DNA of 53,170 nt. It comes from a virus. The notes beneath the pieces were generated by a model. That model had not been told where the DNA came from. It saw only the letters and a program-made list of their open reading frames with translations, and searched no databases. Location of the stretch: the IMG/VR virus record IMGVR_UViG_3300020454_000018, positions 1 through 53,170 of that record; one strand, 5' to 3'. Shown piece by piece: positions 244 through 36,888 of this stretch (position 1 is the first letter of the stretch; each line of letters opens with the position of its first letter). The position numbers and the translations under genes were made by a program.

Positions 244-329
244 TGCTGAGTAGCCTCATCTATCATAATAGCTAAAATTCTTTGAGTAAGGGGTTATAAA
301 TTTTTTTAATCCAACTATTTATTTGTATT

Positions 330-494
330 ATGAAGCGATTATGGAGATTATGGGCTCAATCATTAGGTGAGAAGCAAGGGGAATCCGATTCCGAAGCCGA
401 TGCTATAGCAAGGTTTCGTACAATCCTTATTCTACAGGGTGTTATTACTAATGTGTTGATATCCATTAATATACTTATTAGTTGGTTAAAGTGA
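330..494 (+). CDS. small membrane protein, 54 aa
   Basis: The frame starts with ATG and reads MKRLWRLWAQ, then a polar acidic middle (EKQGESDSEADA), then a hydrophobic C-terminal segment (about residues 31-52, LILQGVITNVLISINILISW) that would span a membrane once. No family is recognised. Its stop overlaps the GTG start of the next small membrane ORF, suggesting coupled translation. A single C-terminal membrane anchor beside a second tiny membrane peptide could fit an accessory lysis pair, but nothing proves that. Confidence 0.5.
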   Translation: MKRLWRLWAQSLGEKQGESDSEADAIARFRTILILQGVITNVLISINILISWLK

Positions 495-9675: not shown

Positions 9676-9879
9676 ATGATTTACCCATCATACAAAAGAC
9701 CCATACACTACATTAACAACACACCATATGTTGTTCATGCAATCATACCTATTCATAGAATAAAGGATGTAAGATTAGTAAAAGAGTGGTTAGGATGTGA
9801 TACTGCATTTAAATTAGCAAGAGAGGGAAATTATTGGTTTTGTGTAGAAATCGAAGAAGCAAATTGGGAATATGTTTAA
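9676..9879 (+). CDS. small hypothetical protein, 67 aa
   Basis: Soluble protein with many aromatic and Ile residues (MIYPSYKRPIHYINNTPYVV...). It starts 7 bases after tRNA-Glu and overlaps the oxygenase gene by 8 bases. No family is recognised. Confidence 0.5.
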   Translation: MIYPSYKRPIHYINNTPYVVHAIIPIHRIKDVRLVKEWLGCDTAFKLAREGNYWFCVEIEEANWEYV

Positions 9880-10390
9880 AGAAAAAATTATATTAAATAA
9901 TGATGAATGTGAATACATTATTAGTTTGTGTGATACATTTAACCCATCTATGATATTTGATTATAAAACAAATACAGGACAAATTAACGAACACTCAAGA
10001 GTATCAGAAGAAGCATACTTTACTGATTTAGAAAAAGTAAAATCTATTATTTTACCTAAATTAAAAGAGTATAATATAAAAAACTTACCCGATAAAACAA
10101 AAGTTTTAAAATACACAAAGGGTAGTTATTTTAAAAAACATAGAGATAGAGGTAGGGGGTTGGAACATAGAAAACTAACCCTTATCATACAATTAACAAA
10201 TAGTGTAAAGTACGATGGAGCTGAGTTATATGTTGATAATAAATTAACATCAAAAGCAATTGGAAACCTAATACTATTTGATTCGGGTAAATTACATGAA
10301 GTTACTGAACTCACAAAGGGTGAACGATTTGTTTTAGTTAGTTGGATTACTACAGAAGATATGATGATAAATAAAAAAACTTTAGTTTAA
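9872..10390 (+). CDS. 2OG-Fe(II) oxygenase (prolyl-4-hydroxylase-like)
   Basis: The double-stranded beta-helix iron site is visible: His90-x-Asp92 (KKHRDRG), distal His142 (GKLHEVT) and Arg152 (GERFVLVSW) for 2-oxoglutarate. The 172-aa length is typical of stand-alone phage P4H-like enzymes, which hydroxylate protein side chains, nucleobases or small molecules using O2 and 2-oxoglutarate. Context with tRNAs and dCMP deaminase does not settle the substrate. One of two such oxygenases in the window, of different subfamilies. Confidence 0.8.
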   Translation: MFKEKIILNNDECEYIISLCDTFNPSMIFDYKTNTGQINEHSRVSEEAYFTDLEKVKSIILPKLKEYNIKNLPDKTKVLKYTKGSYFKKHRDRGRGLEHRKLTLIIQLTNSVKYDGAELYVDNKLTSKAIGNLILFDSGKLHEVTELTKGERFVLVSWITTEDMMINKKTLV

Positions 10391-14129: not shown

Positions 14130-16460
14130 ATGAAGGGCACTTTTTTTTCAGCAGACTTTCTTGTAGATGAAAGTAACAATCTAAGATTGATGGAGATGAA
14201 TACAGATACGGCCTGTATTACAGATACATTAGATACTTACTTTGATTTAACCGAGTTTATAAACTTATTACAATCAAACAATATTACTACGATTCATGCA
14301 ATCTACAAAAACATACACCTCAACTTTATAGATTGGTTAGAAAATAAAATTAGTACAGATGCTACTTTTATAACAAGCTTCGAAAAAACACAAGAAGCGC
14401 AAGATACTATTTATCCAACTGCTATAGCAGATGCTGATGATAAATTTATTTTAAGATTAGCATATGATGAAAACGCATTATTCGATTCTACATATTGTAA
14501 AATCAGAACTAATGTATTAAGTTTGTTTCAAGAAAATAATGATAAAGATTCTGTACCAGAATTCTTTTTAAGTGGAAGTACGGGAGTTATTAATGAAATG
14601 ACAAGCTCGTTAAATGATAATAATAGATTTCCTGATTTAGTAAGAAAAAAAGTAGCTGATGGTAGTGGATTATCTATTGACTTTATTAAGTTCGATAACT
14701 TAGATGTATCATCATCAAACCAAGTTTGGAGTGATTATATTGCTAGTGAGTTAGATACTTCTGTAGATTATGTTGAAAAGTATCACATATCACCTAACTG
14801 GGATTCTCAAAATAGAGTAGATTCCATAAGACAGTTTGGAATAGTATATGGAAGTAATATTGATTATATAAAATTTGGAAGTTATAAAATCCAAAGTGTT
14901 ATAGAAATGCCAAATGCATTAAGTGGTAGTTCAACCAACAATGTAATTGAAATTGGTAAACAACATTACTTTGAATATACAACTAACTTTATGAGACATA
15001 ATAAGTTGGATGGTATTCTTAGTTCTGAAAAAATTCAAAATATAGATAACTCATTCGCAGAACTACCATCTCTTAGTGTAAACGATGATGTAAAATCATT
15101 CTTTATAAGTGGTTCTCCTGATACTGATGATGTAAACATATTTCACAGTTGGTCAAATGATGGGGTTGATTTCCCAATAGGTTCTGAAGTTACATCATCT
15201 ATTATAGAAGCAATGCAATCTTCTTCATTAGATTATTTTAACATAATAGAAAAAACTTTACCAAACGGAGAAACAATTTATTGTGGTATCAATAAGGTTT
15301 TCTTAATATATGAGTCATCTTCAAATCAGATGATGTTTAGAAGAGCAAATCAAATAACAGCATCAGACCATTATTTTGTTGACCACAGTGGTTCACTAAC
15401 ATCCGTATCTCAATCAGCTTATGTTGTATTAGATTCATCAGACTATTCACTCTTTAGAATTGATGTTGAAACAACGGATACATACTTTGTTAGCGCATCA
15501 AAGCCAGTTATCGTTCACAACGCACCATGCTTTGTTGCTGGTACAATGATTCACACCGAAGATGGTAAAAAGAAAATAGAAGATGTGATAGTTGGTGATA
15601 AAGTAGTAACATACAATCACGATAATGACTCTGCAGAATGGAAAGATGTGTTGGAAGTTATGAGAAAAGATAATGAATATGTTGTTACTTATGTATTTGA
15701 AAATGGAACAAAACTTACTGCTACACCTGACCATCCACTATTTGTAGTAGGAAAGGGATACTCTTCTTATCAACCTATCCAAACAAAAGATGATAGTGGT
15801 TTAGATGTAGAGCAAGTATTGTTAGGTGATGAGGTATTACATATAGATGGATATGGTGTAACCATTGAGGATATAATAGAAGAGGAAGAAAAAGAAACAG
15901 TATATAATCTAAAAAAAGTTGCAGATAATCATAACTTCTACGCAAACGACTTTTTAGCACACAACAGATTTGTACCACCATGTTGTTTTGCAGCTGGTAC
16001 ACAAATCCTATTATCAAATGGTGATACTAAAAATATTGAAGATATAGTTGAGGGAGATGAAGTAATGGGATGGAATGGTGAAATATTAGAAGCTTCATTG
16101 GTAACCGCAACTAACAACAAACATACAGTTGATTCACACTGGGAAGCATGTAAAAAATTAGGTGATGAACCATCATTATATACAATCAATGATACGGGAA
16201 TAGAGTTCACACCAGAACACCCATTCCTTACAAAAGAAGGATGGAAATCATTAGTACCTGATTTATCACAAGAACCATATAAATCAGAATCACCAGCAAA
16301 AGAACTTAAAGTTGGAGACTCTATTAATGTTAATGGATTGTGGGAAGAGATAGCAGAAATAAAAATAGTAAGGTCAAATCCTGATGAAGTAGTTTACAAC
16401 ATTAGTGTTGATAAGATACATTCATATATAGCAAACGGAATAATAGTACATAACAAATAA
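14130..16460 (+). CDS. large protein with tandem C-terminal Hint (intein-like) domains
   Basis: 776 aa. The N-terminus (FFSADFLVDESNNLRLMEMN then TDTA) recalls the EINTDTA stretch of ATP-grasp-like or virion proteins of marine T4-like phages. Two Hint domains occupy the C-terminus. Hint 1 runs from Cys467 (CFVAGTMIHTEDG) through TPDHPLF to His611-Asn612. Hint 2 runs from Cys619 (CFAAGTQILLSNG) through TPEHPFL to His774-Asn775, followed by one Lys and the stop. Neither is followed by Cys, Ser or Thr, so self-cleavage is more likely than splicing. A third, degenerate Hint end (PVIVHN, Asn464) precedes Hint 1. No homing endonuclease is inserted. Probably a processed virion protein. Confidence 0.75.
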   Translation: MKGTFFSADFLVDESNNLRLMEMNTDTACITDTLDTYFDLTEFINLLQSNNITTIHAIYKNIHLNFIDWLENKISTDATFITSFEKTQEAQDTIYPTAIADADDKFILRLAYDENALFDSTYCKIRTNVLSLFQENNDKDSVPEFFLSGSTGVINEMTSSLNDNNRFPDLVRKKVADGSGLSIDFIKFDNLDVSSSNQVWSDYIASELDTSVDYVEKYHISPNWDSQNRVDSIRQFGIVYGSNIDYIKFGSYKIQSVIEMPNALSGSSTNNVIEIGKQHYFEYTTNFMRHNKLDGILSSEKIQNIDNSFAELPSLSVNDDVKSFFISGSPDTDDVNIFHSWSNDGVDFPIGSEVTSSIIEAMQSSSLDYFNIIEKTLPNGETIYCGINKVFLIYESSSNQMMFRRANQITASDHYFVDHSGSLTSVSQSAYVVLDSSDYSLFRIDVETTDTYFVSASKPVIVHNAPCFVAGTMIHTEDGKKKIEDVIVGDKVVTYNHDNDSAEWKDVLEVMRKDNEYVVTYVFENGTKLTATPDHPLFVVGKGYSSYQPIQTKDDSGLDVEQVLLGDEVLHIDGYGVTIEDIIEEEEKETVYNLKKVADNHNFYANDFLAHNRFVPPCCFAAGTQILLSNGDTKNIEDIVEGDEVMGWNGEILEASLVTATNNKHTVDSHWEACKKLGDEPSLYTINDTGIEFTPEHPFLTKEGWKSLVPDLSQEPYKSESPAKELKVGDSINVNGLWEEIAEIKIVRSNPDEVVYNISVDKIHSYIANGIIVHNK

Positions 16461-16461
16461 A

Positions 16462-16608
16462 ATGGCAAATACAAATAAACCACCGATATATAAAAAAATA
16501 GCATTTGATATTTCTCAAACAAAACAAGTTTTGAGTTCTGATGAACAAACTAAAGTAACAAACATACTCAATAATTTTATTACCTATTTCAAGGCTAAAC
16601 ATACCTAA
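16462..16608 (+). CDS. small protein, 48 aa
   Basis: Starts one base after the Hint protein stop (MANTNKPPIYKKIAFDISQT...) and ends FITYFKAKHT. Soluble and basic. Adjacent spacing suggests co-translation with the Hint protein; no family is recognised. Confidence 0.5.
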   Translation: MANTNKPPIYKKIAFDISQTKQVLSSDEQTKVTNILNNFITYFKAKHT

Positions 16609-18347: not shown

Positions 18348-18861
18348 GAGTGATAATATTAATCCAAAAACTAAAAATTTGAATAAAAAAATACTTTATA
18401 TAGATATGGATGGTGTGTTGGTTGATTTCAACAAAGCTATCACTAAATTCTTAGATACACATCCACATCTAAAAGATAAGTTTAAAGATTGTCCTGACCA
18501 CATACCAGGTATCTTTAGAAACCCACCTCCTATAGATGGGGCTATTGATGCTATTAACAAATTACACAATAGTGGTAAGTATGATATGTTCATAGCTACC
18601 TCAGCACCTTGGGGTAACCCACAATCACTTACTGATAAAAGATATTGGATAGAGGATTACTTTCCTCATATATTCCACAAAAAAATTGTTACCACTCACA
18701 CCAAAGGGCACTTAATGGGTGATTACCTAATCGATGATAGATTGAAGAATGGTGCTGGTGATTTCAAAGGTAAACTTTTAAGATTCGGATTGGATTGGGA
18801 AAATGATAACAAACCAAATGAGTTTCCTGATTGGGATAGTATATTAGATTACTTACTATGA
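18346..18861 (+). CDS. 5'(3')-deoxyribonucleotidase-like HAD phosphatase
   Basis: ILYIDMDGVLVDF gives the HAD nucleophile Asp20 and acid Asp22, and the C-terminal DYLIDDRLKNGAGDF is motif IV. HIPGIFRNPPPIDGA and FIATSAPWGNP match the NT5C deoxynucleotidase subfamily, which dephosphorylates dNMPs such as dUMP or dTMP. 171 aa is normal. It overlaps the downstream oxygenase by 4 bases. It may tune the thymidylate pool along with dCMP deaminase and thymidylate synthase. Confidence 0.82.
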   Translation: MSDNINPKTKNLNKKILYIDMDGVLVDFNKAITKFLDTHPHLKDKFKDCPDHIPGIFRNPPPIDGAIDAINKLHNSGKYDMFIATSAPWGNPQSLTDKRYWIEDYFPHIFHKKIVTTHTKGHLMGDYLIDDRLKNGAGDFKGKLLRFGLDWENDNKPNEFPDWDSILDYLL

Positions 18862-19556
18862 TAAACAACTTATTTCCTACACCGATTTATAGTAATACCA
18901 TAGATTCAGATACTCTAAAAAAGTTACAAACTGATATCAATGATTATATTAAAAATAATCGAAATGAATTTAATTTAAAAGCTTGGAATTGTAATACAGA
19001 AACAAATATATTATGCGAAGAAGAGAAATCTTTTTTTCCAAAATATTTAAAAGATTTAATAATACAAAATACTGTATCTTACTTTTCTCAAGCTGGGTTT
19101 AAACTTTCACCTTTTTTTATAAGTGGTTGTTGGTTAACGCTTGGTGGAAAAGGAGCGTTTCAAGACTTGCATGACCATTTAGATTCTACTACCCAAAGAG
19201 ATGTATTTTCGGGTGTGATGTATATATCAATTGATGAAAATAGCGGTGGTGAGTTTATCATACAATCACCAATAGATACCTTAGTAAATCTATTACCACA
19301 TTCAGGAATCGAAAGTAAATCTGAAAGACCCGAATATAATAAATCAAATACAGCAAAGTATAAACCACGAATTTTAATGAACGCAAAAGAAGGAATGTTT
19401 ATATCTTTTCCATCTTGGTTAAAACATGGTAGTTTAGATTATAGGTCAGATAAGAAAAAAAGAATATCAATAAGTTGGAACATAACACTTTTAGATAACA
19501 TAACCTTTGATTCAACAAACGCATTACTAACAAACCCAACCAATCAAATGATATGA
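18858..19556 (+). CDS. 2OG-Fe(II) oxygenase (TIGR02466-like)
   Basis: The N-terminus LFPTPIYS and the core FQDLHDHLDS (iron ligands His105 and His107 region), SGVMYISIDENSGGEF and ISFPSWLKHGSLDY (His190), followed by RISISWN (Arg202), match the phage 2OG-Fe(II) oxygenase family described by TIGR02466, common in cyanophages. 232 aa fits. The substrate is unknown. It is of a different subfamily from the P4H-like gene at 9.9 kb. Confidence 0.85.
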   Translation: MINNLFPTPIYSNTIDSDTLKKLQTDINDYIKNNRNEFNLKAWNCNTETNILCEEEKSFFPKYLKDLIIQNTVSYFSQAGFKLSPFFISGCWLTLGGKGAFQDLHDHLDSTTQRDVFSGVMYISIDENSGGEFIIQSPIDTLVNLLPHSGIESKSERPEYNKSNTAKYKPRILMNAKEGMFISFPSWLKHGSLDYRSDKKKRISISWNITLLDNITFDSTNALLTNPTNQMI

Positions 19557-21744: not shown

Positions 21745-22838
21745 TGAAATTCAGAACATTCTTATTAGGATTATCGGCATTGTTCGTTGCTTTCAACGCT
21801 GCCTTTTTTTCTGTAAGTGGTTTATCTAAACTATTTGCTGGAGCATCGTTATCTGTTATACTAATGGCTAGTTCTTTAGAGTTAGCAAAACTAATTACTG
21901 CTGGTTATCTTTACAATTATTGGGAAAAGATAAATAAAGTATTTAGATGGTATTTAACTTTTGGTGTTGTTATATTAGTATTAATTACATCACTTGGTAT
22001 CTACGGATTCCTAACATCAGCATTTCAAGACACCTTTAATCAATTCTCAGCAAATGAAAAACAAAAAGCATTCTTACAACAAAAAGAAAAGTTCTACGCT
22101 GATGATGTTGCAAGATACGATGAGGAACTTAAAAGAATATCTAATAACATCTCTACTCTTTCCAATGCTAAATCTCAACAAATCGAAGTACGAGACACCT
22201 CGGTGGTTGGGGGCGTTAGACGAACCATCTCTACTTCCGAACTTAGGATTTCACAAAAGCGTATTGAAGTTGAAGAAGAGAATCGTAAAAGTGTTCAGTC
22301 AAAAAGAGAAGTAGCAGCAGACTCACTACAATCTATTCAGCTAAAAGTTTTAGATTTAGATACAAACTTGGAGGGGGCATCAGAACTTGGCCCACTACAA
22401 TATCTAAGTGGATTGACTGGATATGGTATGGATAGGATAATCAACTGGTTAATCTTAATCATTATATTTGTTTTTGACCCATTAGCAGTAGCGCTTGTAG
22501 TTGCTTTTAACAATGCTTTACAAGTTGATAGGGGTATTGTAGATAAACAGAAAGTAATTCGTAGGAGAGAGTTATATGATGAAGTACCTGAAGAAGAAGA
22601 TATTGATGAAATCGATGTAAAAGATGAAGAAGAAGTTTTACCACCCGAGGCAAGAGGATTCGAACCACCTAAAAAAGAACTTGAACTAACAAAAGCAGAT
22701 ATTCGACTATATACACATCCTAATTTTAATTGGGAAGATAGAAGGACGTGGCAGAACGACCCCAAAGCAGTTCACTATTGGATAAAAAATATAAAAGATA
22801 AAAGATATCCTGATGATTTCGAAACAAAAACCTATTGA
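21744..22838 (+). CDS. coiled-coil membrane protein, 364 aa
   Basis: N-terminal helices span about residues 4-28 (FLLGLSALFVAFNAAFF), 32-55 and 72-95 (LTFGVVILVLITSLGIYGFL). A long charged coiled coil follows (about 105-215), then another membrane segment (about 226-250, IINWLILIIIFVFDPLAVAL) and an acidic tail (DEVPEEEDIDEIDVKDEEEV). Such topology occurs in phage inner-membrane proteins of unknown role. It overlaps the radical SAM gene by 26 bases. Confidence 0.6.
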   Translation: MKFRTFLLGLSALFVAFNAAFFSVSGLSKLFAGASLSVILMASSLELAKLITAGYLYNYWEKINKVFRWYLTFGVVILVLITSLGIYGFLTSAFQDTFNQFSANEKQKAFLQQKEKFYADDVARYDEELKRISNNISTLSNAKSQQIEVRDTSVVGGVRRTISTSELRISQKRIEVEEENRKSVQSKREVAADSLQSIQLKVLDLDTNLEGASELGPLQYLSGLTGYGMDRIINWLILIIIFVFDPLAVALVVAFNNALQVDRGIVDKQKVIRRRELYDEVPEEEDIDEIDVKDEEEVLPPEARGFEPPKKELELTKADIRLYTHPNFNWEDRRTWQNDPKAVHYWIKNIKDKRYPDDFETKTY

Positions 22839-23649
22839 TGATTTTGTTTTTATTGAAATAGAAATATTTTCATACTGTAATCGAAAATGTTGGTTTTGTC
22901 CAAACTCTTTTGTAGATAGGCGGGGTGAGAACCTAATTATGCCTGAAAAAAAATATCTTAGTATTCTTCAACAACTAAAAGATATGAACTTTAAAGGTGA
23001 GATAGCTTATAGTAGATATAATGAACCATTATCTCATAAAGATATTTTTATAAAAAGGTTAGAACAAGCAAGAGAATATCTACCCAACGCAAAGTTAAGA
23101 ACCAACTCAAATGGTGATTATGTTACAAAAGAATACATAATAGATTTACATAAAGCAGGATTGAATGAATTATTCATACAACAATATTTAAAAAATAATG
23201 AAATCTATAATCACACCAGAGTAAAAAAAGAAATTAAAAGAAAATTAGATAAAGTAGGATTACCATATAAGTTATTATATGATTACAAAGATAGAAAAAT
23301 TGAATATGATTTATCTTACAAAGATATGGTTGTACATATCCGAGGTAGAAACTTTACCTTTGATGGGAGTAGTAGAGGAGAGACTGTACCACTTGCAGTT
23401 GATTATGTAAGAACAGAACGATGCTTAAAACCATTTACTTCGATGTATATCGATTATAATGGTAGCGTTATGATTTGTTGTAATCTTCGTTCAGATATTA
23501 AACAGCATGATATTGGATATATGGGTAATGCATTCGAAACACCAATTAAAGAAATTTGGAATGGTGATAGGTATCTAAGCTGGAGAAATCATCATCAGTT
23601 TAATGGGCCAAAAGAAGGTGCATGTAGAAGTTGTAAAATAGGTTTATGA
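22813..23649 (+). CDS. radical SAM / SPASM enzyme
   Basis: Cys22-x3-Cys26-x2-Cys29 (YCNRKCWFC) is the 4Fe-4S radical SAM site, and FKGEIAYSRYNEPL fits the following GGEP-like strand. The C-terminus carries auxiliary-cluster cysteines: CLKPFTSMYIDYNGSVMICC and CRSCKIGL, the SPASM/twitch pattern. 278 aa. SPASM enzymes modify peptides or sugars (for example aminoglycoside epimerases or dehydratases). It overlaps a glycosyltransferase-like gene by 4 bases, which favours a sugar-linked role, but a peptide substrate cannot be excluded. Confidence 0.82.
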   Translation: MISKQKPIDDFVFIEIEIFSYCNRKCWFCPNSFVDRRGENLIMPEKKYLSILQQLKDMNFKGEIAYSRYNEPLSHKDIFIKRLEQAREYLPNAKLRTNSNGDYVTKEYIIDLHKAGLNELFIQQYLKNNEIYNHTRVKKEIKRKLDKVGLPYKLLYDYKDRKIEYDLSYKDMVVHIRGRNFTFDGSSRGETVPLAVDYVRTERCLKPFTSMYIDYNGSVMICCNLRSDIKQHDIGYMGNAFETPIKEIWNGDRYLSWRNHHQFNGPKEGACRSCKIGL

Positions 23650-26152: not shown

Positions 26153-27025
26153 ATGTATAGGTATCAAAAACTTCTATATAATAGTGATTGTATTTTAGAT
26201 ACAAAATCAAATACTGTCTTTTTTGAAGGTGATGACGGTTGGGATACATATCAACAATGGATAAAAGATTACCCTATTTTAGAAGAAGATATTAAAGCAC
26301 AAAAAGTACAACTACTAAGATGGAATCAAGGTAGACCCATATATTTAGATGATACAAAATATCATTATCATAGAAATGGTATATTATTTAAAACAGAAAC
26401 AGATAACATTTATTGTGAATATGATAACGATGGGTTTTTGATAAAAAAAGAAACCACAACAGATAATGGAAAAGAAATAGAAGAGTATGTTGTTGTAAAT
26501 AAAAAATCACTTCTCAGTAAACGGATAACACCATCAGAAATAATTCATTATCAAGCAACTCCACATCAAGCTATATATAAAAAGTATAAGCAAAATGGAT
26601 TTAATATAGAAGAGTATTTAAGTAATAACAAAATTTACAAAAGTAGTTTTACAAAAAACTCAATCAGAGTAGAAAAGCAATTTGCTAATGGATATACTAC
26701 TGAAGCAAAAACATATGTTGATGATATACTTGTTAAAGAAAAGTTTTATTTTTCTGGTACAAGTACAATATCAAAGAAAAATCACAAACTAAGAACAGAA
26801 GATGCTGCAGGTTATTATTATACAGAATATTACCCTACTACGAATTGTAGAGCTGAAGGACTTTTAACCGAAAATGATAAACCAACTGGAGTATGGAAAT
26901 TTTATCATGTCAATGGTGAAGTAGAATCTGAGCATTTTTTTAATGATGGTAGATTTGAACAATATAGTAGGTCATCCGTATATTATGAGGATGGTACTTT
27001 AAACTTTAACATTAAGCATGATTAG
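26153..27025 (+). CDS. MORN-variant repeat protein, 290 aa
   Basis: Repeating short beta units of the type YHRNGILFKTET, YDNDGFLIKKET and KPTGVWKFYHVNGEVESEHF, then YEDGTLNFNIK, match the MORN-variant (YwqK-like) repeat. No signal peptide. Such repeats bind partners or act as scaffolds. It overlaps the GT2-like gene by 8 bases, so it may serve the glycosyltransferases. Confidence 0.6.
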   Translation: MYRYQKLLYNSDCILDTKSNTVFFEGDDGWDTYQQWIKDYPILEEDIKAQKVQLLRWNQGRPIYLDDTKYHYHRNGILFKTETDNIYCEYDNDGFLIKKETTTDNGKEIEEYVVVNKKSLLSKRITPSEIIHYQATPHQAIYKKYKQNGFNIEEYLSNNKIYKSSFTKNSIRVEKQFANGYTTEAKTYVDDILVKEKFYFSGTSTISKKNHKLRTEDAAGYYYTEYYPTTNCRAEGLLTENDKPTGVWKFYHVNGEVESEHFFNDGRFEQYSRSSVYYEDGTLNFNIKHD

Positions 27026-27914
27026 TATTATTATTCCATTTGCCGTAAAAAACGAAGAAGATATAAATCTACACAATTGGCCAAATCAAGATTTAGGATT
27101 TAATATATACAATACAATACAATGTATAAAAAATATTAATAAACTTTTAGATTTTGATAAAGAAATAATATTGGTTGATAATACTAATAATTTTCCAAAA
27201 CTTAAATTACCAAATCTAAAAGTAATAAAAGGTTGGCAATATCTTACTGAAGATGAAATAAAATCAAAATCTGATTTTTCAAAATATAAAATAGATAATT
27301 TTAAAAACCAATCAATGTGGGCATCTATGGCTTACAATATAGGTTTGAAAGAAGCAAGGGGTGAGTATGTTATTTTACAGCATAATGATATACATTATCA
27401 TAACAACTTAATACCAAATATGATAAACCTTATGAAAAATGAAAGTTTAGAATATATTTCAGCTGATTTTAAAAAACTAACTATCTCTGGTTATTTGGGT
27501 AATAAAGAAGTAATGGATAACATCGAAAATGATATTGAAGTTAGTTATATAGATGGTGGTTATATTAAAACCAAAAAAATAGGATTTGCAGATTGTTACT
27601 TTTTTATTTCGAAAAAAGAATTCTTTAATGATTATTATGTTGATTGGGCATATGGAGATTCAAATCATGGGGCTACTATAAAGTGTTTAAAAAACAAAAA
27701 AGATTTTTTACACTTAAGTCCATTTTATGATAATCCAAACTTTGAAACCAAAAATAAACTAAGAACTTATTATTTTGATTCAAAAAAATTTATAACACAT
27801 TTAAAGGGTGGGTTTTCTCAAAACAAACTATCGTTTAAAAAAATACATAAAAATATTATGAGTGTTGTATATCAAGACGAAATTTACAAATATTTAAATT
27901 TAATAAATGATTGA
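27018..27914 (+). CDS. family 2-like (GT-A) glycosyltransferase
   Basis: MISIIIPFAVKNEED at the start, KEIILVDNTNN at strand 2, ASMAYNIGLKEARGEYVILQ and HNDIHYH at the metal-binding turn (an HND variant of DxD) match the GT2/GT-A nucleotide-sugar fold. The 298-aa size suits a single domain. It overlaps genes on both sides, forming a block with the MORN and GT25-like genes. Donor and acceptor are unknown. Confidence 0.68.
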   Translation: MISIIIPFAVKNEEDINLHNWPNQDLGFNIYNTIQCIKNINKLLDFDKEIILVDNTNNFPKLKLPNLKVIKGWQYLTEDEIKSKSDFSKYKIDNFKNQSMWASMAYNIGLKEARGEYVILQHNDIHYHNNLIPNMINLMKNESLEYISADFKKLTISGYLGNKEVMDNIENDIEVSYIDGGYIKTKKIGFADCYFFISKKEFFNDYYVDWAYGDSNHGATIKCLKNKKDFLHLSPFYDNPNFETKNKLRTYYFDSKKFITHLKGGFSQNKLSFKKIHKNIMSVVYQDEIYKYLNLIND

Positions 27915-28656
27915 AGCACACATCATAACTTTACCTAAATCAAAACACAGTATGAGTTTGGCTGATAGATGTATTACTAATCTCAAAGAAACTTTTGGTT
28001 TTGATAATCCAAACTGGAATGTTTCTTATTCATATGGCGTTGATAAGTATTCAGTTTGGCAAACATACATAGATTCTAATCTTAATTTAAATATTGATAC
28101 TTTTGGTGTAGGAAATTTAGAATCAGAAATAGCAACTTTTTTTTCTCACTTAAATTTATGGCAAAAATGCTTGGATAATTCAAAAAAATTTCTTATATTA
28201 GAGACTGATTCTGTATTTACAAAAGATGTAGATATAAATCAATTATTAAATTTTGATGGGGATTTATTAAATTTAGGATATCCTAATTGGGGTAGTTCTA
28301 TAAATGGAAAGCAAAATAATATAGATATAAAAATGGAATGGTTGGATAAACCAAATGGTATTTTAAAAAGAGAGTTTTGTGAAAATGAGCACGATAGACA
28401 CTCACCACACTTAGGAAGTTGTCATTGTGATACCGAATGGTTATTTGGAGCACATTGTTATTTACTAAACCCATCAGGAGCAAAAAAATTATTGGATAGT
28501 TTAAAAAAAGGAATAGAACCAGCTGATACATACATAAGTCAAAAAGTATTAAATATTTATGATTTACTACCACACCCAGCCAAACAACTAAATGATAATA
28601 GTTTTATCCAAAGACATTATAAACATAACGGAATTGATGACCAATGGGATTACTAA
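27907..28656 (+). CDS. family 25-like glycosyltransferase
   Basis: LESEIATFFSHLNLWQKCLD and KFLILETDSVF correspond to the SH..W..... and LEDD blocks of LPS-type family 25 glycosyltransferases; LFGAHCYLLNPSGAKKLL and ADTYISQKV are the later family blocks. 249 aa is normal. In the family these add galactose or other hexoses to LPS or collagen-like acceptors. The ETD variant keeps the acidic metal ligands. Confidence 0.7.
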   Translation: MIEAHIITLPKSKHSMSLADRCITNLKETFGFDNPNWNVSYSYGVDKYSVWQTYIDSNLNLNIDTFGVGNLESEIATFFSHLNLWQKCLDNSKKFLILETDSVFTKDVDINQLLNFDGDLLNLGYPNWGSSINGKQNNIDIKMEWLDKPNGILKREFCENEHDRHSPHLGSCHCDTEWLFGAHCYLLNPSGAKKLLDSLKKGIEPADTYISQKVLNIYDLLPHPAKQLNDNSFIQRHYKHNGIDDQWDY

Positions 28657-34472: not shown

Positions 34473-35207
34473 ATGCCCAGACCAAGAAGAAAAAAATCGA
34501 AAATGTACTTTGGTACACCTGCACAAGATGCTATAATTGCTTATAACAAATGTAAAAACCCAAAAGAACGAAATAAAATTTATAATGATGGGATTAAATA
34601 TCCATTTGATAAATTAGCAGAAAATGTTTTAAATACATTTAAATTTACTTACTTTGATGTACCAAAATCTGATGTTAAAAAAGAAGTAGTATCAGCTATG
34701 GTAGAAAAAATACATATGTACAAAGAGGGTAAAGGAAAGGCATTTTCATATTTTACGATTATAGCAAAAAATTATCTGATTCTAAATAATAATGGTAATT
34801 ACAAAAGGTGGCAAAAAAACGCATTAATATCTGAAATGCCACAAACTTGGAATCCTGAAAATGATTTTAATGAAACACAACAAAATGAAGAATATTCTGA
34901 ATTTAGAAAAATTATGCTAAGTTATTGGGATAAAAATCTAACTGTTGTTTTTACAAAGAAAAGAGATATCCAAATAGCAGATGCAGTATTGGAGTTATTT
35001 AGAAGAGCAGATTATATAGAAAACTTTAATAAAAAACATTTGTATTTACTGATAAGAGAAATGACCGATTGTAAAACACATTACATTACAAAGGTGGTAA
35101 ATGTTATGAAACAACATCAGAAAAAAATGTTAAATGCATTCTTAGAGGGAGATGTAATAGAAGATAATGTAAATCAGTTTTGGAATGAAGAAGAGCATTT
35201 ACGATAA
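34473..35207 (+). CDS. 55: late-transcription sigma factor (T4 gp55-like)
   Basis: GKGKAFSYFTIIAKNYLI (about residues 88-105) matches sigma-70 region 2 as reduced in T4-type gp55 late sigma factors (xxAFxYFTxIxxNxxL). VKKEVVSAMVEKIHMYKEG precedes it, as in gp55. 244 aa is longer than T4 gp55 (185 aa), with a C-terminal helical extension. It would direct RNA polymerase to late promoters, probably the TATTTATA boxes here. It overlaps the carbamoyltransferase gene by 23 bases. Confidence 0.72.
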   Translation: MPRPRRKKSKMYFGTPAQDAIIAYNKCKNPKERNKIYNDGIKYPFDKLAENVLNTFKFTYFDVPKSDVKKEVVSAMVEKIHMYKEGKGKAFSYFTIIAKNYLILNNNGNYKRWQKNALISEMPQTWNPENDFNETQQNEEYSEFRKIMLSYWDKNLTVVFTKKRDIQIADAVLELFRRADYIENFNKKHLYLLIREMTDCKTHYITKVVNVMKQHQKKMLNAFLEGDVIEDNVNQFWNEEEHLR

Positions 35208-36888
35208 ATACATTATTGGTATTTCATATGGATTTCACGATTCTGCCGTAGCTCTAATTAAAAATGGAAAGGTTTTAAATGCGGTTGAAGAAGAAAGATT
35301 CACTGGTATAAAACACGATTACTCATTTCCAATAAATTCAATTAATTGGATTCTAAAAGAAAACAATATAAATGGAGATGATATCTCAGTAGTTTGTTAT
35401 TATGAAAATCCAAAATTAAAATACGATAGAGATAAAAAATCGTATTGGAAATATTTTTGGAAGAATCCATTTAACTTTCCAAAAAAATCTAATCCATTTG
35501 ACCCAATTGAAAACATATTTAGAAAAGCTAAAATTACAGTTGGTAATCACCACTTATCTCATTTAGCATATTCATATCTTACATCAGACTTTGATGAATC
35601 AGCCATACTATCTGTTGATGGTGTTGGTGAATGGGATACTACAGTGATGGCATATGGAAAGCAAAATCAAATAAAAAGATATGGGGAGGTTGTATATCCA
35701 CACTCATTAGGATTACTTTATTCTACAATCACTGCATTCTTAGGATTTAAACCAAATGAAGGTGAGTATAAGGTAATGGGATTGGCACCATATGGTACAC
35801 ATTTATTTCACCATAAAATGTTTGATGAACTAATAAAGGAAACAGATGATGGATTTGAACTAAATATGGATTATTTTTCATATCATTATTCTGATAAAAT
35901 AATGTTTAACAAAAAACTTTCTAAGTTATTTAACATACCAAATAGATTACCAAATGAAAAAGTAAATGATATTCATAAAAACATAGCTGCAGCTTTACAA
36001 TACACATATGAAAAGCATTTCTTTAAATTATTAAATAAGTTATATAAAAAAAGTAAATCTAAAAACTTATGTTTGAGTGGTGGGTGTGCATATAATGGAA
36101 CTGCTAATGGTAAGATACAAAGTAAAACCCCATTCAAAAACATTTGGATTCCACCAGCCCCATCAGATGCTGGTTCAGCTATTGGAGCTGCTCTTTACTA
36201 TTGGAATCATATTACAAATCAAAGAGAAGAAAATAAATCACCTTTCTTAGGTCCATCAGAAAAAATATTAAATGTAGTAAATGTAATAAAAGAAAATGAT
36301 ACTAAGATATTTTATGAAGCACTATCTGATGAAGAATTATTTCCTAAAATAGCTAAACTAATATCCGAAGGTAATATTATTGGATGGGTTAGAGGTCAGT
36401 TAGAATTTGGTGCAAGAGCATTAGGTAATCGTTCTATCTTAGCAGACCCGAGAGACCCACAAATGAAAAAGAGGGTAAATATGGTAGTAAAGAAAAGAGA
36501 AGGATTTAGACCATTTGCTCCTATGGTTACTTATGAGGATATGAAAAACTTTTTTACACCAACGATTGAAATACCTTATATGAACCAAATTGTTTCAGTT
36601 AAACCTAAGCATAGAAAAAAATTACCAGCTATCACACATATAGATGGTTCAGCAAGAGTACAAACACTTAGAGAAGATTTTAATCCTAAGATGTATAAAC
36701 TCTTAAAAGAATATCAGAAGATTACAAAGTATCCAATACTACTTAATACATCATTCAATCTCAAAGACCAAACTATGGTTAGAGATTCACAAGAAGCAAT
36801 TGATACATTTATGAATTGTGATATGGATTATTTAGTAATTGATAATATTTTTATATCCAAAAAAATACTTTCTGAAACTTTAACATAA
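35185..36888 (+). CDS. NodU/TobZ-type carbamoyltransferase
   Basis: Transfers a carbamoyl group from carbamoyl phosphate via carbamoyl-AMP onto a hydroxyl. GISYGFHDSAVALIKNGKVL and AVEEERFTGIKHD open the N-terminal ASKHA domain; HHLSHLAYSYL, ILSVDGVGEWDT, LSGGCAYNG and PAPSDAGSAIGAAL follow. The C-terminal domain has GQLEFGARALGNRSILADPR and KREGFRPFAPMV, then PILLNTSFN. 567 aa is full length. All key motifs are intact. The acceptor could be a sugar, or a hydroxymethylated base as proposed for some phage carbamoyltransferases. Confidence 0.93.
   Translation: MKKSIYDKYIIGISYGFHDSAVALIKNGKVLNAVEEERFTGIKHDYSFPINSINWILKENNINGDDISVVCYYENPKLKYDRDKKSYWKYFWKNPFNFPKKSNPFDPIENIFRKAKITVGNHHLSHLAYSYLTSDFDESAILSVDGVGEWDTTVMAYGKQNQIKRYGEVVYPHSLGLLYSTITAFLGFKPNEGEYKVMGLAPYGTHLFHHKMFDELIKETDDGFELNMDYFSYHYSDKIMFNKKLSKLFNIPNRLPNEKVNDIHKNIAAALQYTYEKHFFKLLNKLYKKSKSKNLCLSGGCAYNGTANGKIQSKTPFKNIWIPPAPSDAGSAIGAALYYWNHITNQREENKSPFLGPSEKILNVVNVIKENDTKIFYEALSDEELFPKIAKLISEGNIIGWVRGQLEFGARALGNRSILADPRDPQMKKRVNMVVKKREGFRPFAPMVTYEDMKNFFTPTIEIPYMNQIVSVKPKHRKKLPAITHIDGSARVQTLREDFNPKMYKLLKEYQKITKYPILLNTSFNLKDQTMVRDSQEAIDTFMNCDMDYLVIDNIFISKKILSETLT

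Follow-up and report, generated by a model that had tools for sequence, protein, structure and literature searches.

Serial Hint domains behind a probable ATP-grasp domain, with a small partner gene, in a protein of uncultured phages

What is a phage protein for that ends in two complete Hint (intein-like) domains, one almost directly behind the other, with a single residue left over? The question is raised by the open reading frame (ORF) at 14130-16460 of IMG/VR virus record IMGVR_UViG_3300020454_000018, of which positions 1 to 53,170 were analysed (this whole stretch of 53,170 nucleotides is called the window). An earlier note on this DNA had described a probable virion protein with two C-terminal Hint domains and a possible third, decayed copy. 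In the account given here the Hint domains are genuine, the supposed remnant is a conserved domain, the front end is very probably an enzyme domain and a small gene follows almost without exception, an arrangement that could belong to a self-processing precursor. The features are as follows.

14130-16460, plus strand: protein ORF, 776 aa.
14130..14999, plus strand: probable ATP-grasp domain of the glutathione/glutathionylspermidine synthetase (GS/GspS) type, residues 1-290 (fold model, Foldseek, hhalign).
15012..15521, plus strand: Cys-less Hint ("pseudo-Hint"), residues 295-464 (hhalign, fold match, conservation).
15522..15527, plus strand: linker Ala-Pro from the Cys-less Hint to Hint1, absent in 12 of 62 relatives, where HN is followed directly by CF.
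15528..15965, plus strand: active-type Hint1, residues 467-612 (Pfam, fold match, alignment).
15966..15983, plus strand: linker RFVPPC, residues 613-618 (sequence).
15984..16454, plus strand: active-type Hint2, residues 619-775 (Pfam, phmmer, alignment).
16455..16457, plus strand: Lys776, the sole residue past Asn775, then the stop (this residue is Lys in 51 and Arg in 3 of the 54 members that end in His-Asn).
16462..16608, plus strand: gene of a 48-aa partner microprotein, starting 1 nt past the stop of the Hint gene.

The tandem Hint domains are real and far beyond chance. Pfam assigned the Hint stretches to Intein_splicing (1.9e-20), Hint_2 (1.8e-12) and PT-HINT (6.9e-12), all above the curated cut-offs, and Hint2 is covered by Intein_splicing at residues 627-775. 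By phmmer, residues 467-605 matched the bacterial intein-like (BIL) domain 2lwy (E 4e-7) and residues 619-774 matched Tetrahymena BIL2 (6tmm; E 0.0027), while a hidden Markov model (HMM) of the family, which includes the window's own Hints, scored Hint1 at 8e-51 and Hint2 at 6e-42. An AlphaFold2 model of the whole protein (mean predicted local distance difference test score, pLDDT, 75) gives the Hint fold both for residues 295-464 and for Hint1, which superposes on BIL2 (6y75) with Z 23.4 and a root-mean-square deviation (rmsd) of 1.5 Å over 142 residues at 25% identity, and on 2lwy with Z 19.6 at 33% identity. The fold search with the whole model was dominated by Hint1; Hint2 has no entry of its own among the best 50 rows, which is neutral for Hint2. 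Other viral Hint proteins were matched in BFVD, none of them at full length. The Hint superfamily, with its fold and blocks A, B, F and G, thus takes in Hint1 and Hint2 by Pfam and alignment, and Hint1 and the Cys-less Hint by fold. The boundaries given in the earlier note, Cys467 to Asn612 and Cys619 to Asn775 with six residues between them, are correct to the residue and are backed by Pfam, phmmer, the HMM and the model: Hint1 has Cys467, a T-P-D-H block B, His611-Asn612 and Arg613 at +1, and Hint2 has Cys619, a T-P-E-H block B and His774-Asn775.

Relatives were collected from IMG/VR by a whole-protein search (43 loci, 30 covering most of the protein) and by a profile search with the N-terminal domain (99 loci, 80 kept), and 62 distinct proteins were analysed. 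The relatives, about 100 in all, come without exception from uncultured viral contigs. None was found among 50,697 phage records, cultured phages included, and none of 69 pattern matches in one genome per species of 84,980 prokaryote species was confirmed, a pattern-based search that may miss divergent relatives. All 62 proteins consist of the predicted ATP-grasp domain, the Cys-less Hint and one (23), two (33) or three (6) active Hints, which are separated by linkers of 1-11 residues (most commonly 2). Every segment of the protein is under purifying selection, with a median ratio of nonsynonymous to synonymous rates (omega) of 0.13-0.19; many synonymous distances are near saturation, and the ratios speak for purifying selection only, not for exact values. 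One of the 62, L069, has a last Hint that ends early in a truncated or frameshifted sequence; its missing end seems readable just downstream, and a frameshift or assembly error is likely.

A comparison of the catalytic sites among relatives, which the earlier note had proposed as a check, found Cys1 and the block-B His in all 107 active Hints and the C-terminal His-Asn (HN) in 99. The last Hints of seven members (L064, L065, L071, L073, L078, L107 and L116) lack HN and end in ..VSG plus a short tail (..VSGLGDN); they retain Cys1 and the block-B His, that is, the half that serves thioester formation. The eighth Hint without HN, in the truncated or frameshifted L069, does not count as a genuine variant.

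True inteins carry Cys, Ser or Thr after the terminal Asn. None of the family's 99 HN-ending Hints does, whereas a survey of viral proteins that close with a similar Hint found one of the three in 68 of 76 complete ORFs (the 76 include a few family members). At internal sites Arg or Lys lies at most two residues downstream of HN in 44 of 45 cases. The lack of a splicing nucleophile, which the earlier note had seen in the two window Hints, is therefore a property of the whole family, and so, in most members, is the single residue behind the last Hint. Because no Cys, Ser or Thr follows Asn, conventional splicing is excluded as far as sequence can tell. A class 1 intein would have such a residue at +1 and a conserved extein continuing after it; here Arg613 and Lys776 occupy +1, the rest of the family has no Cys, Ser or Thr there either, and the protein ends one residue past the last Asn. 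Cys1, HN and a +1 position free of Cys, Ser and Thr are instead the marks of A-type BIL domains. Two IMG/VR patterns that allow a stop one codon past HN returned HN-Lys proteins only, all but one (L262) recognisable as family members; a few are fragments that the Cys-less Hint or the C-terminal Hints identify. The remaining matches to the first pattern read TGG rather than a stop; the second pattern requires Lys, and the choice of residue was tested by the first alone. L262 is a proline-rich, virion-like protein with an unrelated front that ends in a single Hint, ..NILVHNK and a stop. Two tape-measure-like phage proteins (L131, 1059 aa, and L134, 1082 aa) have a BIL-like Hint in mid-protein that closes with His-Asn-Lys and is followed by a long C-terminal part.

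In the Cys-less Hint, Gly295 replaces Cys1 and the block-B His is absent, with His463-Asn464 retained. Profile-profile comparison by hhalign aligned it with the active Hints over columns 3-171 against 2-149 (prob 97.3, E 1.8e-11), and region 295..464 of the model matched the Prp8 intein (Z 16.0, rmsd 2.2, 134 aligned). The active-Hint HMM exceeded 10 bits on the Cys-less Hints of 24 of the 62 relatives (best single iE 2e-9), against 0 of 62 for reversed, shuffled or N-domain controls. Asn464 is kept in 62 of 62 members (a simple script rule had taken a later GN in L124 and L028, and HN is visible upstream in both), His463 in 59 of 62, and position 295 is Gly in 90% of the family; Ser357 and the terminal Asn464 are the only residues of the domain that never change among the 62. 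With the terminal Asn invariant and purifying selection on a par with the rest of the protein (median omega 0.15), conservation marks the Cys-less Hint as a complete domain and not a decaying remnant. The earlier note had seen a third motif ending at Asn464 and supposed a decayed copy that had lost its first block. Its homology stands by hhalign, fold and HMM; the loss of a first block does not, the whole Hint being present at 295-464, and neither does the decay. Likewise QITASDHYFVDHSG (the QITASDHYF motif), which had been taken for block B, is placed by the profile alignment opposite the later 'VEQVLLGDEVLHIDG' block, and the block-B position itself reads GINKVFLIY, without His.

Residues 1-290 matched no Pfam family and no PDB entry by sequence. 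Modelled alone with 59 sequences (pLDDT 89.8), they gave ten Foldseek PDB matches at E<0.001, all of them ATP-grasp proteins of the GS/GspS type and the best being YgiC (4e-6); a second structural comparison returned human GS (Z 10.2, rmsd 5.4) and YgiC (Z 9.7, rmsd 4.1, 215 aligned). Comparison of the front-end profile with E. coli YgiC/YjfC/Gss (hhalign E 1.2e-4, prob 55) aligned the stretch FSADFVkDsnGNLRLLEiNTDT, and D9, E22 and N24, invariant in the 59 sequences, fall on Gss D318/E330/N332, which we take to be metal (Mg) ligands of Gss. The fold evidence is remote but consistent, and the models make it very probable that residues 1-290 are an ATP-grasp domain of the GS/GspS type; amide ligase activity would be a prediction from this likely fold. 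The front end contains no recognisable virion domain, and no support for a virion role was found for it.

Directly downstream of the family gene stands an ORF of 43-53 aa in 61 of 62 members, the exception being the truncated L069. Its start lies between 1 nt before the stop and 31 nt past it (86 nt in a single member). Each locus has one copy, none of the retrieved loci carries it anywhere else, and it evolves with an omega of about 0.19. The microprotein of the window reads MANTNKPPIYKKIAFDISQTKQVLSSDEQTKVTNILNNFITYFKAKHT, and the family consensus is M..(x)YK...R...K...I..FI.YFKAKH. with no known family matched in Pfam, PHROGs or phages. Readthrough of the stop codon into the microprotein is ruled out, because its start offsets vary in frame between members. 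In comparison with RiPPs (ribosomally synthesized and post-translationally modified peptides) such as graspetides, a conserved small gene does follow, with no leader/variable-core pattern that can be asserted.

Any reading of this locus has to account for what is observed directly: the domains and their order, the catalytic residues, the Lys or Arg after Asn, the varying number of copies and the partner gene. The reading that we favour, giving it about an even chance, makes the protein the precursor of an ATP-grasp enzyme, which the BIL-type array, by analogy with known systems, would release or transfer to an amine via a thioester. Each active Hint would form a thioester at its own Cys1 and so turn everything upstream into an activated acyl group, and this chemistry would be the common denominator, since Cys1 and the block-B His are retained in all 107 Hints, also in the variants without HN. 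Because no Cys, Ser or Thr follows, water or an amine, rather than conventional splicing, would resolve the thioester, and cyclisation of the Asn in HN would trim off the Lys or Arg side; overall, the Hints would be removed step by step. The useful product would have to be the N-terminal part, since only Lys lies beyond the last Asn, and this ATP-grasp enzyme could end up free, capped or conjugated. For the Cys-less Hint, whose Asn never varies, the prediction is C-terminal (Asn) cleavage only, at 464, and the 43-53 aa microprotein is the best candidate for a partner or for an acceptor or substrate. Staged self-cleavage, as the earlier note had suggested, is thus plausible; release of the C-terminus, its other suggestion, fails on the one residue that most members have past the last Asn. 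As precedents, BIL domains without Cys, Ser or Thr at +1 mostly cleave (PMC7664689), the 2lwy BIL can, according to work cited there, ligate without a nucleophilic side chain, and Tetrahymena BIL2 joins its N-terminal flank to Lys by an isopeptide bond (PMC8616854).

Several points weigh against this reading. Every chemical step in it is inferred by analogy, and the array may lack activity in the cell. The front end resembles ATP-grasp enzymes only distantly (hhalign prob 55, rmsd above 4 Å). Pro precedes Hint1 at -1 (Ala-Pro or Ser-Pro) in 30 of 62 members and is unfavourable for N-terminal cleavage by inteins. Several Hints are followed by Arg, a poor nucleophile, and the basic +1 residue may serve for recognition instead of as an acceptor.

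The rival readings are sub-cases of the favoured one or alternatives to it, and their probabilities overlap. Best placed among them, though unlikely, is a conjugation device in which a Hint thioester hands the ATP-grasp polypeptide to Lys776 or to a Lys in the microprotein or another protein, forming an isopeptide or amide bond as BIL2 does with ubiquitin-like (Ubl) domains. BIL2, an isopeptide-bond former (PMC8616854), is indeed the nearest solved structure, a basic residue is conserved after Asn, and the Lys-containing microprotein, with its YK motif and FKAKH end, is encoded directly behind; yet BIL2 is just 25% identical to Hint1, a Pfam scan finds no Ubl domain in the protein, Arg stands at some +1 positions and the acceptor cannot be told from sequence.

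The neighbouring genes bear on a further proposal. The first downstream ORF of at least 80 aa is a 2-oxoglutarate- and Fe(II)-dependent (2OG-Fe(II)) oxygenase in 42 of 63 loci, compared with 3 in which it is the first upstream ORF, which is suggestive of a link to the family gene, although such oxygenases are common in these phages. It is a somewhat fainter prospect that the locus would be a protein-joining cassette, in which an ATP-grasp amide ligase with its Hint array, the 43-53 aa acceptor or carrier and often the oxygenase make a modified small protein or conjugate; the array might then, with no better a chance, dispense activated acyl groups Hint by Hint. The next ORF of at least 80 aa in the window is of another kind, and the 2OG-Fe(II) oxygenase is found at 18858. 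Also recurrent nearby are carbamoyltransferase, radical S-adenosylmethionine (SAM), glycosyltransferase-like, adenosine phosphosulfate (APS)-kinase and nucleotidyltransferase genes, and the upstream genes vary among members. The window has candidate modification genes at 22813-23649, 27018-28656, 35185-36888, 18858-19556 and 9872-10390 (radical SAM/SPASM, two glycosyltransferases, a NodU-like carbamoyltransferase and two 2OG-Fe(II) oxygenases), judged by which this phage fragment carries a rich modification set.

A purely structural role, with the Hints kept as folded tail domains or binding modules after processing was lost, is improbable: it would suit the last Hint, which comes within about one residue of the protein end, and the Cys-less Hint retained in all members, and it leaves unexplained why Cys1 and the block-B His persist in 107 of 107 Hints, and HN in 99, despite wide divergence. 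We rate splicing without a nucleophile about as low, or slightly lower; here Asn cyclisation would free the +1 amine to attack the thioester, so that the Hints are excised and Arg... or Lys is joined upstream. The match of 2lwy to Hint1 (33% identity, Z 19.6) and the conserved residues at both Hint ends speak for it; BIL domains mostly cleave, however (PMC7664689), seven variants lack HN, and it is hard to see what would be gained by removing a 150-aa domain to attach one Lys. Most doubtful is the earlier note's virion protein with a self-cleaving tail, for although the window comes from a large contractile-tail phage with baseplate genes and other phage Hint proteins (L131, L134, L262) are virion-like, the front has a predicted ATP-grasp fold, the neighbours are oxygenases, transferases and other modification enzymes, and the upstream genes are variable. 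The baseplate wedge protein places this phage closest to Microcystis phage Mel-JY01 and the Flavobacterium phages 'immuto' (37-41%).

The arrays also have a history of their own. In a tree of the 107 active Hints (a quick tree of 149 columns with many weak branches, read for its strong or near-identical cases), the Hints cluster by position in the array rather than by protein. Hint1 of the window groups with first Hints, and Hint2 joins the last Hints and the lone Hint of L046, which is 77% identical to it in a protein that has no Hint1. L090 and L102 have near-identical last Hints and unlike first Hints, and in L099, L123 and L116 the first and last Hints are drawn from different groups. The tree thus indicates that modules have been gained, lost and exchanged, and because of these position-specific clades and swaps the two Hints of the window, 30% identical, are not a recent duplicate pair; recent tandem duplication is ruled out. 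In our viral survey, the few proteins from outside the family that carry several Hints have them far apart. Close downstream of the family gene in L102 (L102:6457-6939) is a stand-alone 160-aa Hint-like protein (HMM E 7e-9) without Cys1 and without HN.

Touching serial Hints with swappable modules amount to a natural experiment in Hint chemistry, in which a Cys-less Hint keeps only the Asn, some Hints keep only the thioester half and a basic residue replaces the splicing nucleophile. The array could be a new viral way to cut or join the virus's own proteins and, if active, would provide new means of cleaving or ligating proteins. With an ATP-grasp ligase fused to it and a microprotein that is almost always present, it offers a small, concrete and testable system in uncultured aquatic phages.

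Hint and BIL domains, BUBL polyproteins and GspS-type ATP-grasp enzymes are already known. The open-licence literature that we searched (subscription papers lay outside the search) yielded no account of a phage protein whose serial Hints touch, in line with the earlier note's impression that serial Hints are little described there, nor of an ATP-grasp-Hint fusion or of the microprotein; the rows of Hints and the two-gene partnership with the microprotein appear undescribed. Polymorphic toxins of the PT-HINT type have a toxin domain after the Hint, where only Lys follows here, and Hedgehog Hog proteins have a sterol-recognition region where this protein ends. Haloarchaeal MCM likewise has several Hint-fold elements in one polypeptide, but these inteins lie inside conserved exteins at separate sites (PMC10643990). 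YgiC, YjfC and Gss share the predicted fold of residues 1-290 and the D..E.N triad, and the first two act as peptide-spermidine ligases (Pederick 2023, as cited in PMC12568646); the front end differs from them in length (about 290 against about 390 aa), in sequence (about 10% identity) and in the attached Hint array. Ciliate BUBL loci, whose polyprotein contains BIL elements that process themselves (Dassa 2004, as cited in PMC8616854), supply the best structural match in BIL2 (6y75/6tmm, Z 23.4). There, however, each BIL is flanked by Ubl domains, of which Pfam finds none in the whole 776-aa protein, and the family's Hints touch, with linkers of 1-11 residues. Closest in kind are A-type BIL domains such as that of C. 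thermocellum (2lwy), which share Cys1, the block-B T..H, His-Asn, a +1 position without Cys, Ser or Thr, and the Hint fold; the family differs from them in setting two or three Hints back to back behind a Cys-less one, at the extreme C-terminus of an ATP-grasp fusion, and in conserving Lys or Arg after the last HN.
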